A stretch of 64,000 nt of DNA from Halogranum gelatinilyticum (GTDB taxonomy: Archaea; Halobacteriota; Halobacteria; Halobacteriales; Haloferacaceae): contig NZ_FNHL01000001.1 in NCBI RefSeq assembly GCF_900103715.1, positions 62,001 to 126,000 of the forward strand. The letters run 5' to 3'. A program made the position numbers and the translations under genes. A model generated the notes under the pieces. That model searched no databases, was not told the DNA's origin, and saw only the letters and a list, made by a program, of their open reading frames with translations. Positions 37,078-61,768 of this stretch are shown in pieces (position 1 is the first letter of the stretch; each line of letters begins with the position of its first letter).

Positions 37078-37283
37078 GCAGTGCAGTCGGTGCAGTCGGC
37101 GCGGTCGGTGCGGTCGGTGCGGTCGGTGTGGTCGGTGCGGTGCAGTTGCAGGAGAAGTCGAGGGGTCGTACCGCGAGCGAGGGTCGGAGACCCGAGCCTC
37201 GCGGGGCGGGTTTTTTGGCCGAGCTTTTTTAGTGGGGTCGAGGCCGCCGGAGGCGGCCGAGGCCCCACGCTGAAAAAAGGTCG
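37078..37283 (-). repeat. Composite 3' element following polD1 (copy 1)
   Basis: Read on the minus strand from the polD1 stop: CGACCTTTTTT, a hairpin, then AAAAAAGCTCGGCCAAAAAA, then a CGCGGTACGACCC-like segment, then seven or so copies of CACCGACCG-like 9-base units. The same order of parts follows the stop codon at 58228. The remaining bases to 36924 have no gene and no repeat I recognise. Confidence 0.75.
37232..37268 (-). terminator. Hairpin terminator of polD1
   Basis: Arms GTGGGG..GGCCGCC and GGCGGCC..CCCCAC with a three-base loop, flanked on one side by six T and on the other by six A. It could end transcription from either direction. Confidence 0.6.
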
Positions 37284-39038
37284 TCAGGAGAATTTCCGAA
37301 CCGTCATCTCCAGCGTGTCGAGGTCAAGAATGGGCGCGTAGCCCGCGTCGGGGTCGATGTTGACGGACTTCTGGAAGTCGGTCTGTGCCTGCCAACAGCC
37401 GGAATTGACGGCGAGGACGTTGTGGTACTTCCCCCAGCCGAGTTTGTGAACGTGGCCGGTGTGGAAGACGTCCGGTACGTCCTCGATGACGAGATAGTCC
37501 TTCTCTTCGGGTGCAACGCGGGTGTGGCCGCCGTACTGCGGGGCGACGTGACGCTTCTTGAGGAGTTGGTACATCGCCTTGTGCGGCTCGTCGTAGCTGG
37601 CCTTATCGGCCGGGAGTTCCGCGATGACCTCGTCGAGCGAGACGCCGTGGTACATGAGTACGGAGACGTTCTCGACGGTCACGGTCGAGGGGTTGCTCGT
37701 GATCTTCGCGTCGTGGGCGGACATGATCTCCCGAAGCTCCTCGTCGAAGCCGGGTTGGGGTTCCGCGAGGCGGACGGCGTCGTGGTTGCCCGGAATCATC
37801 ACGATCTCCATGTCGCCGGGCACCTGTTTGAGATACTCCGCGAACCGCTCGTACTGGTCGTAGATGTCGATGATGTCGAGTTCTTCGTCCTGGTTCGGAT
37901 AGATGCCGACGCCCTCGACCATGTCGCCAGCGATGAGGAGATACTCGACCGGGTCGGCCTCGGGAGTGTGCAGCCAGTCGGTAAAGCGGTTCCAGGCGTC
38001 GGCCATGAACTCCTGGCTGCCGACGTGGACGTCCGAGATGAGAGCCGCCTGCACGTGACGGTCGGCGGTGCTGGGGCGGTGCGTCCGCGGGATGTCGGGG
38101 AAGTGGATGCTGTCGGCGAAGAGGATGCCCGCGTCGTCGGCGAGCGTCCCCTGGATCGCGATACACTCGTCTTTGAGCATCTGGTCGACGAGTTCGGCGA
38201 TGTTCTTGTCCTTCATCACCAGACAGGGGAAGGTCCCGGTCGTGTCCTCCAGTTCGACGAGCCAGTGGCCCGACGCCGTCGACCGGATGTCGTTGACGAG
38301 ACCGATCATCTCCGCGTCGCTCCCGCCGGGCATCTGCTGGATTGCCTTGGCAGGACGGTGGTTGACACGGCCGCGAAGGAGTTTCGAGAGCCGCTCGTAG
38401 CGGTCTTTGAACGTCGTCACGAACTGCTTGTACTCGCCGGTTCCGGTGCTCGCACCGGTCATGTCGTTCGTGATGTGGGCTGGCGTCGGATTACGAGTGT
38501 GGCTGGACTGCGACGCCTCCGACGACAGCGTCGTATCCGTCGATACCGGCGGAGACGAGTCGCCGTCGCTGGAAGTGCTCGATGGGACGGCCTTCCCGGT
38601 ATCCCCGATATCAGTCGAGGGAACGGTCTCTCCGGTATCGGTTGATGAGACGGTATCCTCGACATCGGCCGACGCCGACCCCTCCGTTTCGACTGGAGCG
38701 GACTGTGACGGTCGATTCGGTTTCGGTTCGGCCGTTTGGTCGGTCTCTCCAGTCGAAACAGGGGGGTCTTGGGTCACCGACTCACGAGGAGGAGCGTCGG
38801 CCGACTCGTCGGAGGGTGGCTTCGTCGGGGCATCCGCAGAGAGTTTGTCGGTGTCGAGGACCGCCCGGACGTGGGCGACGGTGATGCGGAGGGCGTCGTC
38901 GGGGGCGTCTTCGACCGCCCGGTCGAGTGCGAGTGCCGGGTCGGCGGCGTTCGCGAGCAGCGTGATGGCCTCTCGCTCGGCGTTGTAGCCGCGGCGAGCG
39001 AGTTCCGTGACCAGACCCGACGGCGTCGAAAGCGGCAC
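37284..39038 (-). CDS. polD1: DNA polymerase D small subunit (DP1)
   Basis: The 584-residue small subunit of the archaeal replicative polymerase PolD. Residues 1-60 form the helical N-domain. Residues 65-200 are a disordered linker rich in Ser, Thr, Asp and Pro. The OB fold begins near 215 (HWLVELEDTTGTFPCL), and the calcineurin-like phosphodiesterase domain covers about 325-570, with SDVHVGSQEF, AGDMVEGVGIYPNQ, PGNHDAVR and TGHVHKLG intact. That would allow 3'-5' exonuclease activity. The start is GTG. Two ORB-like motifs lie inside the linker. It sits in the conserved origin cluster with sec11 and orc1. Confidence 0.95.
   Translation of the reverse strand: MPLSTPSGLVTELARRGYNAEREAITLLANAADPALALDRAVEDAPDDALRITVAHVRAVLDTDKLSADAPTKPPSDESADAPPRESVTQDPPVSTGETDQTAEPKPNRPSQSAPVETEGSASADVEDTVSSTDTGETVPSTDIGDTGKAVPSSTSSDGDSSPPVSTDTTLSSEASQSSHTRNPTPAHITNDMTGASTGTGEYKQFVTTFKDRYERLSKLLRGRVNHRPAKAIQQMPGGSDAEMIGLVNDIRSTASGHWLVELEDTTGTFPCLVMKDKNIAELVDQMLKDECIAIQGTLADDAGILFADSIHFPDIPRTHRPSTADRHVQAALISDVHVGSQEFMADAWNRFTDWLHTPEADPVEYLLIAGDMVEGVGIYPNQDEELDIIDIYDQYERFAEYLKQVPGDMEIVMIPGNHDAVRLAEPQPGFDEELREIMSAHDAKITSNPSTVTVENVSVLMYHGVSLDEVIAELPADKASYDEPHKAMYQLLKKRHVAPQYGGHTRVAPEEKDYLVIEDVPDVFHTGHVHKLGWGKYHNVLAVNSGCWQAQTDFQKSVNIDPDAGYAPILDLDTLEMTVRKFS
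38678..38699 (-). promoter_or_regulatory. ORB-like motif inside polD1
   Basis: On the minus strand: CTCCAGTCGAAACGGAGGGG, one arm of an inverted pair with the motif at 38745. It codes for APVETEGS in the linker. Confidence 0.4.
38745..38768 (+). promoter_or_regulatory. ORB-like motif inside polD1, opposite orientation
   Basis: CTCCAGTCGAAACAGGGGGG on the plus strand, with the G-run pointing away from the partner at 38678. In the polD1 frame it encodes PPVSTGE. Confidence 0.45.
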
Positions 39039-57607: not shown

Positions 57608-58228
57608 ATGAACGCATCCGCCTTCGCCGAGACGCTTCGCGACGACCACGAGACCGCCCTCTCCCGACTCGGTTCCTCGAAAGCCCTCTACGCGCTCACC
57701 GGCGGCGAGATGGACGCCCCGAACGTCCGACGGGCCGCCCACGACGAGGCGACCACCGCCGCCCGCGTCTTCGCCGAGTGGGCCGACAGCGAGGACGACG
57801 CAGCCGCTGCCGACGTCTTCGCCGACGTCGCCGCCGACGCCGAGTCTCACCTCGATGCCATCGGTGCCGACGCCGGTGACCCGGACGCGACACGGCCGCT
57901 CTACGAGACGCTCGAGGGCTTCGACGACACGCACGCCCGCCTCGGCGGCCTCGTCGGCCGGACGCTCGCGACCAAGAAGACCGCAGAACAGCTCGTCGGC
58001 TTCTTCGTCGGCGACGCCGACCCCCAGTCGGCCTCGACGTTCCGCGGGCTGCGCGACGACTACGACGACCATCTGGACGCCGCGCTCGCCGCACTCGACG
58101 ACGCCTGCGAGACCGACGAGGAGTGGGACGCAGCCAAAGCCGCCGCTGACGCCACTATCGAGGCTGCCTACGGCCACTACGTCGAGACGTTGGAAAGCAT
58201 GGGCGTGAAGCCGAAGAACGTCTGCTGA
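57608..58228 (+). CDS. Conserved haloarchaeal protein, ferritin-like helical fold
   Basis: A 206-residue acidic, all-helical protein starting MNASAFAETLRDDHETAL. It has conserved-looking motifs (SRLGSSKALYALTGGEMD) and many Ala residues. The pattern of four long helices resembles rubrerythrin or ferritin-like bundles, but no clear diiron motif (ExxH pairs) is visible. Some haloarchaeal genomes name this family a transcription antitermination protein; I cannot confirm that. The composite 3' element starts at its stop codon. Confidence 0.7.
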   Translation: MNASAFAETLRDDHETALSRLGSSKALYALTGGEMDAPNVRRAAHDEATTAARVFAEWADSEDDAAAADVFADVAADAESHLDAIGADAGDPDATRPLYETLEGFDDTHARLGGLVGRTLATKKTAEQLVGFFVGDADPQSASTFRGLRDDYDDHLDAALAALDDACETDEEWDAAKAAADATIEAAYGHYVETLESMGVKPKNVC

Positions 58229-58440
58229 ACGACCTTTTTCTACGTCGGGTCGCCTTCGGCGACCGCTCCTTGAAAAAGCTCGGCCAAAAAAGCCGCAAAG
58301 CTCGGCCTGACGGCCTCGTTTGCGGTACAACACGGGATCCGACTTCCGCATCCGCACCGCGACCGCACCGGCTTCCGCACCGCGACCGCAACGCACGACG
58401 ACGCACGGCTCACTCCGCACCGCCACCGCGACACGGCTAC
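58229..58440 (+). repeat. Composite 3' element (copy 2)
   Basis: Directly after the stop codon: ACGACCTTTTTC, hairpin, GAAAAAGCTCGGCCAAAAAA, TGCGGTACAACAC, then repeats of CCGCACCGCGACCGCA type. The order of parts is the same as after polD1 on the other strand. Confidence 0.75.
58234..58278 (+). terminator. Hairpin terminator after the 57.6 kb gene
   Basis: GGTCGCC-TTC-GGCGACC hairpin, enclosed by CTTTTTC and GAAAAAG, which could extend the stem. The T-run precedes the hairpin and an A-run follows it. Confidence 0.5.
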
Positions 58441-61050: not shown

Positions 61051-61434
61051 GTGGTCACCTTCGCTGCCGGCGGCTTGCTCCGTCGTGACGACGGCGCGCT
61101 CTGTGTCGTCCACCGGCCGCGTTACGACGACTGGTCGCTGCCGAAAGGAAAGCTCGAAGACGGCGAGACGCTGGTCGAGACCGCGGTTCGCGAGGTCCGT
61201 GAGGAGACCGGTTGCACGGTCGACTGCGGCCGATATGCCGGTCGGTACCAGTACGACGCAGGGAGCCAAGGGACCAAAGGGGTCTTCATCTGGCATATGG
61301 ACGTCGCCGACGAGCGAGCCGTCGACCCCGACGACGAGGTCGACGACCGTGCGTGGCTGACGCCCGAGGCCGCGCTCGACCGACTGACGTACGAGAACGA
61401 ACGCGGACTCGTCGCGCGGGCGTTCGTGGACTGA
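61051..61434 (+). CDS. Nudix hydrolase
   Basis: A 127-residue Nudix enzyme. The Nudix box is complete: GKLEDGETLVETAVREVREETG (residues 33-54). The small size, without extra domains, fits the Ap4A or MutT type. It may cleanse damaged nucleotides, which would fit its place behind uvrB, but substrate is unknown. Start GTG, three bases after the uvrB stop. Confidence 0.9.
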   Translation: MVTFAAGGLLRRDDGALCVVHRPRYDDWSLPKGKLEDGETLVETAVREVREETGCTVDCGRYAGRYQYDAGSQGTKGVFIWHMDVADERAVDPDDEVDDRAWLTPEAALDRLTYENERGLVARAFVD

Positions 61435-61768
61435 GTCGTTTTGCAAAAACCCGGCAAAAACGCCGTTTTGCCGGCAATCGTTGTGTGATTCCGCATCACA
61501 TGGCCCGGGCTAATACCAAGACTTTTTACTACGGAGTGGAACCTCCGTGTACGACCGTGACCCGCGACTCGGCGGACGAGTGCGACGGCCACGACTGTCA
61601 CCGCTCCTGTTCTCTCGGAAATTCTGCCCGATTGATCATCCGAGAGACCGTGGTGAGAGCACGTGTGTGGTTCGCCTCCGCTGGTGCACCGGTAAACGGC
61701 TCGACTTCTGCACTGCACTCTCTCGCGTCGAGTGCAGCCGACAACTGAGCATCACTAGAACCACAACC
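61435..61768. other. Intergenic 330 bases
   Basis: Apart from the terminator at the left, the block holds a TATA-like TTTTTACTA at about 61532-61540 and a small inverted repeat ACGGAG/CTCCGT just after. A frame of 63-82 codons ending at 61748 is open, but its codon use degrades after the first 20 codons; I do not call it a gene. Confidence 0.4.
61451..61474 (+). terminator. Terminator after the Nudix gene
   Basis: Perfect 9-base arms CCGGCAAAA and TTTTGCCGG with a 6-base loop, starting 17 bases after the stop codon. It is probably the end of the uvrB-nudix transcript. Confidence 0.65.

Follow-up and report, generated by a model that had tools for sequence, protein, structure and literature searches.

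An element of the general form CGACC-T4-6, hairpin 1, A4-6-GCTCGRYC-A4-6 and hairpin 2 ending in CTCGCGG(TAC) was found at gene borders of Halogranum gelatinilyticum and of other members of the class Halobacteria. It appears to be real and widespread, and apparently undescribed in the open literature searched: no description of the composite was found in open-access papers (subscription papers lying outside this coverage), and a comparison of ten element loci with 4227 Rfam models placed it in no family, the only matches being to a tRNA and, below threshold, to one other model at a distance from the element. Judging from its sequence, it is rather probably a transcription-unit boundary element, i.e., a two-way U-tract terminator that would spread by copying; its anatomy, placement, compensatory pairing, stem replacement and spread over the class were shown, whereas termination in both directions and the copying mechanism are what we infer from its arrangement and distribution.

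The window, i.e., the whole stretch of 64,000 nucleotides that was analysed, contains two copies of the element. The original prediction had described the same parts following the stop codons of two unrelated genes in one order, and direct reading of both strands bore this out, as follows.

37284..39038, minus strand: host gene of the first copy, the archaeal polD small subunit (DNA_pol_E_B, Pfam)
37286-37284, minus strand: TGA stop codon of polD1, immediately before the left arm of the first copy
37279..37283, minus strand: left arm CGACC of the first copy, directly abutting the polD1 stop
37273..37278, minus strand: T6 then C (T6C), sense-strand U-tract of the first copy
37231..37272, minus strand: hairpin 1 of the first copy, type A stem, GTGGGG..CCCCAC with inner GGCCGCC..GGCGGCC
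37211..37230, minus strand: core of the first copy, A6-GCTCGGCC-A6; the plus strand reads as a double U-tract, TTTTTTGGCCGAGCTTTTTT
37171..37204, minus strand: hairpin 2 of the first copy, CCGCGAG..CTCGCGG
37174-37165, minus strand: GCGGTACGAC of the first copy, running past the end of hairpin 2
37081..37141, minus strand: 9-bp tandem array beside the first copy, a neighbour and no constant part
57608..58228, plus strand: host gene of the second copy, without Pfam match, protein end GVKPKNVC
58226-58228, plus strand: TGA stop codon of the second host gene
58230..58234, plus strand: left arm CGACC of the second copy, 1 nt past the TGA
58235..58239, plus strand: T5 then C (T5C), sense-strand U-tract of the second copy
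58240..58272, plus strand: hairpin 1 of the second copy, type B stem, CGTCGGGTCGCC..GGCGACCGCTCC
58273..58291, plus strand: core of the second copy, A5-GCTCGGCC-A6; the minus strand reads as a double U-tract
58293..58325, plus strand: hairpin 2 of the second copy, CCGCAAA..TTTGCGG
58322-58331, plus strand: GCGGTACAAC of the second copy, running past the end of hairpin 2
58339..58396, plus strand: 11/29-bp tandem array beside the second copy (11-bp repeat), a neighbour and no constant part
37010-58520: the 21-kb segment bearing the two copies, corresponding to G001:C12:113600-134330 and G002:C29:403560-424850 in two sister species

Allowing for at most 3 mismatches, the 19-base core had these 2 matches in the window and none in 100 shuffles. 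The GCGGTAC segment, which had been listed as a separate part, is indeed present at both loci but corresponds to the closing side of the second hairpin. Likewise, a CACCG-type array follows both reported copies, but it is clear beside only 3 of 12 copies in the genome and does not belong to the module. Another short A/T run cluster (GTTTTGCAAAAACCCGGCAAAAACGCCGTTTTGCC), just past a predicted gene at 61430-61530 of the window, resembles a further bidirectional tract.

In the whole genome (3.77 Mb, 11 contigs), the 19-base core occurs at 11 places with at most 3 mismatches, against 0 for a reversed-pattern control, and the composite GACCTTTT-N18-48-AAAAG at 12 distinct places (control: 2). One variant (L008), whose arm reads CCACC, was recovered with the 19-base core; together with an additional copy from a still looser search, lying about 40 nt from a divergent start codon (L279), it brings the total to about 14. 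This falls short of the dozens of copies that had been foreseen for the genome, whereas hundreds exist across the class. The hosts identified by Pfam encode the polD small subunit, EF-1 beta, NifU-like, PAPS reductase, semialdehyde dehydrogenase, PdxS-type SOR_SNZ, YlbF and radical SAM proteins; a tRNA-Ala gene is another, and two more, recognised from their sequence only, presumably encode a CDC48-like ATPase and a nitrite/sulfite-reductase-like protein. The host genes are ordinary core genes.

The composite CGACCTTTT-N18-48-AAAAGCTC was present in 19 of 60 relatives and, when the same class was scanned, in 78 of 294 genomes belonging to 30 of 78 genera (the control gave about 12 matches in total). 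With 0 to 27 copies per genome, the distribution within Halobacteria is patchy; the matches listed include Halolamina, Halorussus, Halegenticoccus, Halarchaeum, Halomarina, Halorientalis, Halobium, Natrinema and Natribaculum. Among about 240 genomes from the rest of the phylum, a handful of hairpin-less matches turned up, at or below the control level. A scan of named genomes, consulted for names and context only, gave outside Halobacteria, among the matches listed, numbers close to chance (by estimate, about 230 would be expected for 18 fixed bases). Neither viruses nor plasmids are supported as a vehicle, since the phage records held no match to the composite and the plasmid records one partial match, which is haloarchaeal.

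The second A-run of the core, which the search did not require, directly follows in 75 of 87 copies (a few have a run of three A), and the spacer between the antisense U-tracts is usually 8 nt. Most of the remaining ones have an extra hairpin set inserted exactly in the core. Such sets, of at least two hairpins between GCTC and the second A-run, were seen at L018, L030, L086, L034, L045, L053, L194 and L255, and one of the inserts (TCTTCGCGGTTYCACCGCGAAGG...) recurs almost unchanged at three different genes, in the three genomes of the genus studied here (L018, L030, L086).

The stems of hairpin 1 had been thought free to drift. Instead, they fall into recurring types and their pairing is kept through compensatory change: among 18 copies of the same length, 99.3% of cells are paired, with 39 double changes vs 10.8 in shuffles, while slid controls fail; 7 type A copies give the same picture. 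According to these alignments, it is the pairing of hairpin 1, more than its sequence, that is maintained. G-U pairs are very scarce (2 cells in the 18-copy set), hence both DNA and RNA could be the level at which selection or repair acts, and compensatory change would also be expected of a DNA palindrome lacking any RNA function. The arms CGACC and GCTCG pair as well, apart from a constant C-C mismatch, but the T and A arms were a requirement in most searches, which leaves their constancy only partly informative. Downstream of polD1 in another genome (L072, G041), a variant has symmetrical arms CGAAATTTT..AAAATTTCG followed by ATCAAAAG, indicating that the arm sequence itself can change yet stay paired. 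Besides, several genera share a conserved flank, TAGTGTTCCGGGCGTACA, in front of the element (L027, L185, L243, L248, L254, L257 and L260), often in two copies; it had no match in an Rfam search and may represent a further repeat or a small RNA that has escaped annotation.

Placement was assessed on 68 copies, with a codon-usage gene caller trained on the 64-kb window. None of the 68 lies inside a gene. The upstream gene is on the same strand in 47, and in 42 of these CGACC starts 0-5 nt past the stop codon or tRNA end, the T4-6 run beginning about 5-10 nt past it; one copy counted outside the 42 (L040) also directly follows a tRNA. Rather than being confined to two copies or unrelated to stop codons, the element thus occurs genome-wide with the tight stop linkage that had been anticipated. 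In the other 21 copies the left gene is on the opposite strand, and 13 of them sit 33-46 nt from its start codon. Leaderless transcripts are common among haloarchaea, and these 13 start-side copies lie at the upstream edge of a leaderless haloarchaeal promoter. Hence, the description as a 3'-UTR module fits the gene-end copies but not the approximately one third with an opposite-strand left gene, most of which are promoter-side. Where such promoter-side copies lie in a tandem arrangement, the element may reach with its right end to the stop codon of the other gene (L128, L014, L043) and then fills the whole gap. Of 44 same-strand copies whose right neighbour is known, 28 face a convergent gene; in the window, 47% of gene ends do so (p about 0.02), which makes for a weak excess with a single window as baseline. 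Seven of the 68 copies lie between divergent genes, where a terminator is needless unless antisense transcripts matter. Other T-runs of the window are generally farther from stops. At polD1 itself, 25 of 30 orthologues are devoid of a T4+ run within 60 nt of the stop, and no element follows the gene in the sister species G001 and G002; the element is therefore not essential at a given gene.

Under the favoured two-way reading, CGACC-T4-6-(C) right past the stop would end the upstream transcript on the sense strand. On the other strand, transcription coming in would pass hairpin 2 and then be stopped by two U-tracts 8 nt apart (UUUU-GRYCGAGC-UUUU), the core reading there as a putative double U-tract, TTTT(TT)GRYCGAGCTTTT(TT), behind hairpin 2. 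Sense transcripts are predicted to end at the C that follows the T4-6 run, and antisense transcripts within TTTTGRYCGAGCTTTT; in either orientation the adjoining gene end or promoter would be shielded from read-through. This would explain the conserved A-runs with their fixed spacing, the occurrence of both orientations at gene ends and the promoter-side placement. CTTTTTC and CTTTTTTC, within about 10 nt of the stop, resemble the T5C signal of Haloferax volcanii, an intergenic terminator that ended 95% of transcripts in a reporter (PMC7237163). In Methanococcus maripaludis, two U4 tracts are the smallest RNA to which the termination factor aCPSF1 binds efficiently, and two-tract terminators performed best (PMC8716108). 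The classical hairpin-then-U termination of bacteria is inapplicable to the sense strand because the first U-tract precedes hairpin 1 (T-run then hairpin, i.e., the reverse order), whereas the antisense strand has hairpin 2 and then a T-run. What hairpin 1 contributes is the weakest step of this reading: it may keep the opposing tracts apart, serve as a backup for termination after read-through or be the part that is copied. It would act as an exchangeable cartridge between constant arms, whole stems being sometimes replaced from copies elsewhere.

Such exchange is supported by the orthologous genes, at which stem types switch, and by the recurrence of one stem at non-orthologous genes. After the PAPS reductase gene, the stem is of type A in H. 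gelatinilyticum and of type B in G001; the latter, together with its arms, matches the copy following the 58228 gene of H. gelatinilyticum in 50 of 52 bases. At the 58228 gene, the three genomes of the genus carry three different stems, that of G002 being type A in inverted order. In several other orthologue pairs, hairpin 1 and its arms are identical or nearly so (51/51, 50/51, 61/61 and 48/48, for instance) while the upstream 300 bases differ by 10-20%. Stems are thus both conserved and sometimes replaced as units. Flanking direct duplications accompany 6 of 88 copies, whereas a control with mixed flanks gave 1 in 419, and 4 of the 6 correspond to neighbouring gene ends; no target-site duplication of fixed length and no linked transposase were found. 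At L008, L014, L043 and L050, the last 29-60 coding bases of the neighbour are duplicated across the element, both duplicates encoding the complete protein end, usually with different stop codons. At L050, the last residues are identical but the codons and stop codons differ, which rules out a simple target-site duplication there; this duplicate probably came from a related gene, by recombination with DNA of a related organism. At L128 (2534-2717, Halegenticoccus tardaugens), the element and the last bases of the neighbouring gene are tandemly duplicated as a 131-bp unit. Copying by gene conversion or homologous recombination, rather than by a dedicated transposase, is the mechanism these patterns favour. 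The terminator module spread by copying of the original prediction is therefore sustained by the many stop-linked copies, the stem exchange and the duplicated gene ends, but it had overlooked the promoter-side copies and the two-way reading.

Several other explanations have to be set against these data. Hairpins directly downstream of stop codons, with compensatory changes in their stems, are in line with a 3' RNA stabiliser that shields transcript ends from the exosome, a role proposed for bacterial REPs. However, copies beside promoters or between divergent genes have no transcript entering from upstream on the strand in question, the RNA would already be released at the U-tract by the time a hairpin could form, and G-U pairs are rare, which makes this explanation very improbable. 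A non-autonomous mobile palindromic DNA of the PATE or REP kind, surviving at gene borders because insertions at other sites do harm, and without any benefit to the host, would account for the patchy distribution of 0-27 copies per genome, the two palindromes of non-coding length, the nested left ends CGACCTT-CGACCTTTT (L020, L032), the double left end of L140, the tandem duplication at L128, the extra hairpin inserts in the core at three different genes of one genus, and the excess of flanking duplications over the control. Yet tolerated insertions should scatter over the gap instead of lying within 5 nt of the stop in 42 of 47 cases. The core and hairpin 1 are, besides, often better conserved between orthologues than their surroundings, target-site duplications of fixed length are lacking and the three Y1 transposases of the genome have no similar adjoining palindromes. 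We therefore hold this origin to be rather unlikely.

The apparent recombination around the element could also be its primary property, i.e., a site enabling harmless swaps of whole genes, the terminator-like sequence being secondary. The two reported copies point outward from the 21-kb segment, which is inverted in G001 and G002 relative to H. gelatinilyticum, G008 and G012, and both inversion breakpoints fall in the two gaps holding these inverted copies, an event with a chance of about 1 in 1300 (52 window gaps) that was noticed post hoc. Recombination between the inverted copies would explain the inversion, and G008 has elements at both genes, which indicates that the pair may be old. The duplicated gene ends of L050, L043 and L008, encoding the full protein end with different stops, point in the same direction. 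However, one inversion junction is without element in G001 and G002, which simple recombination between copies does not predict, and the case consists of a single inversion, found after looking at this pair; as the main function of the element, recombination appears improbable. The two-way terminator thus remains the preferred reading. It is possible, although we put this forward tentatively and as a conjecture of lower likelihood, that all these properties belong to a self-spreading boundary module found throughout Halobacteria, a two-way terminator with copied cartridges that carries gene ends along and guides rearrangements to gene borders.

Archaeal terminators are usually described as plain T stretches, and the element is built from known principles. 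A conserved composite that reads as a terminator on both strands, adjoins stops or promoters and swaps its hairpin between loci would render two questions testable: the way haloarchaea separate adjoining transcription units, and the way regulatory modules spread without an evident transposase. It would moreover supply halophile genetics with insulators ready for use and might explain why rearrangements fall at gene borders.

Among known systems, the T5C terminators of H. volcanii share with the element a T run followed by C just past genes of Halobacteria (PMC7237163). They consist of plain T runs, and the median 3' UTR there is 97 nt, whereas the run of the element lies no more than about 10 nt from the stop, within a conserved composite of two hairpins and an antisense double tract. 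The aCPSF1 terminators of M. maripaludis (PMC8716108) have two close U4+ tracts, as has the antisense core of the element, but in the available part of that report they appear without conserved spacer or flanking hairpins and in a single direction, and they belong to another archaeal class. Bacterial REP, BIME and RPE sequences are likewise dispersed palindromes, some of them at stops, that were proposed to end or stabilise transcripts (PMC3733652). They are defined by a GTAG or CGTC tag and a link to RAYT, while the element has variable stems between constant arms; no such tag was found at the hairpin foot, the constant arms being CGACC and GCTCG. The PATEs and other small mobile repeats of Haloquadratum (PMC3119063), likewise from Halobacteria, are short, non-coding, palindromic and dispersed, and other small repeats insert into them much as hairpins do into the element. 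PATEs are related to the ends of IS605-type transposons, and the available text of that study mentions no link to stop codons, whereas the element is tied to stops and no such ends were found at it. An IS200/IS605 origin was discarded, as no IS605-type end palindromes or related ones lie beside the three Y1_Tnp genes of the genome. With regard to the lack of inverted terminal repeats and of target duplications that marks PATEs, the arms CGACC-T and A-GCTCG of the element form imperfect inverted repeats around hairpin 1, and 6 of 88 copies have flanking duplications. On the features compared, the element is a member of neither the REPs nor the PATEs, but its likeness to both in lifestyle is clear.
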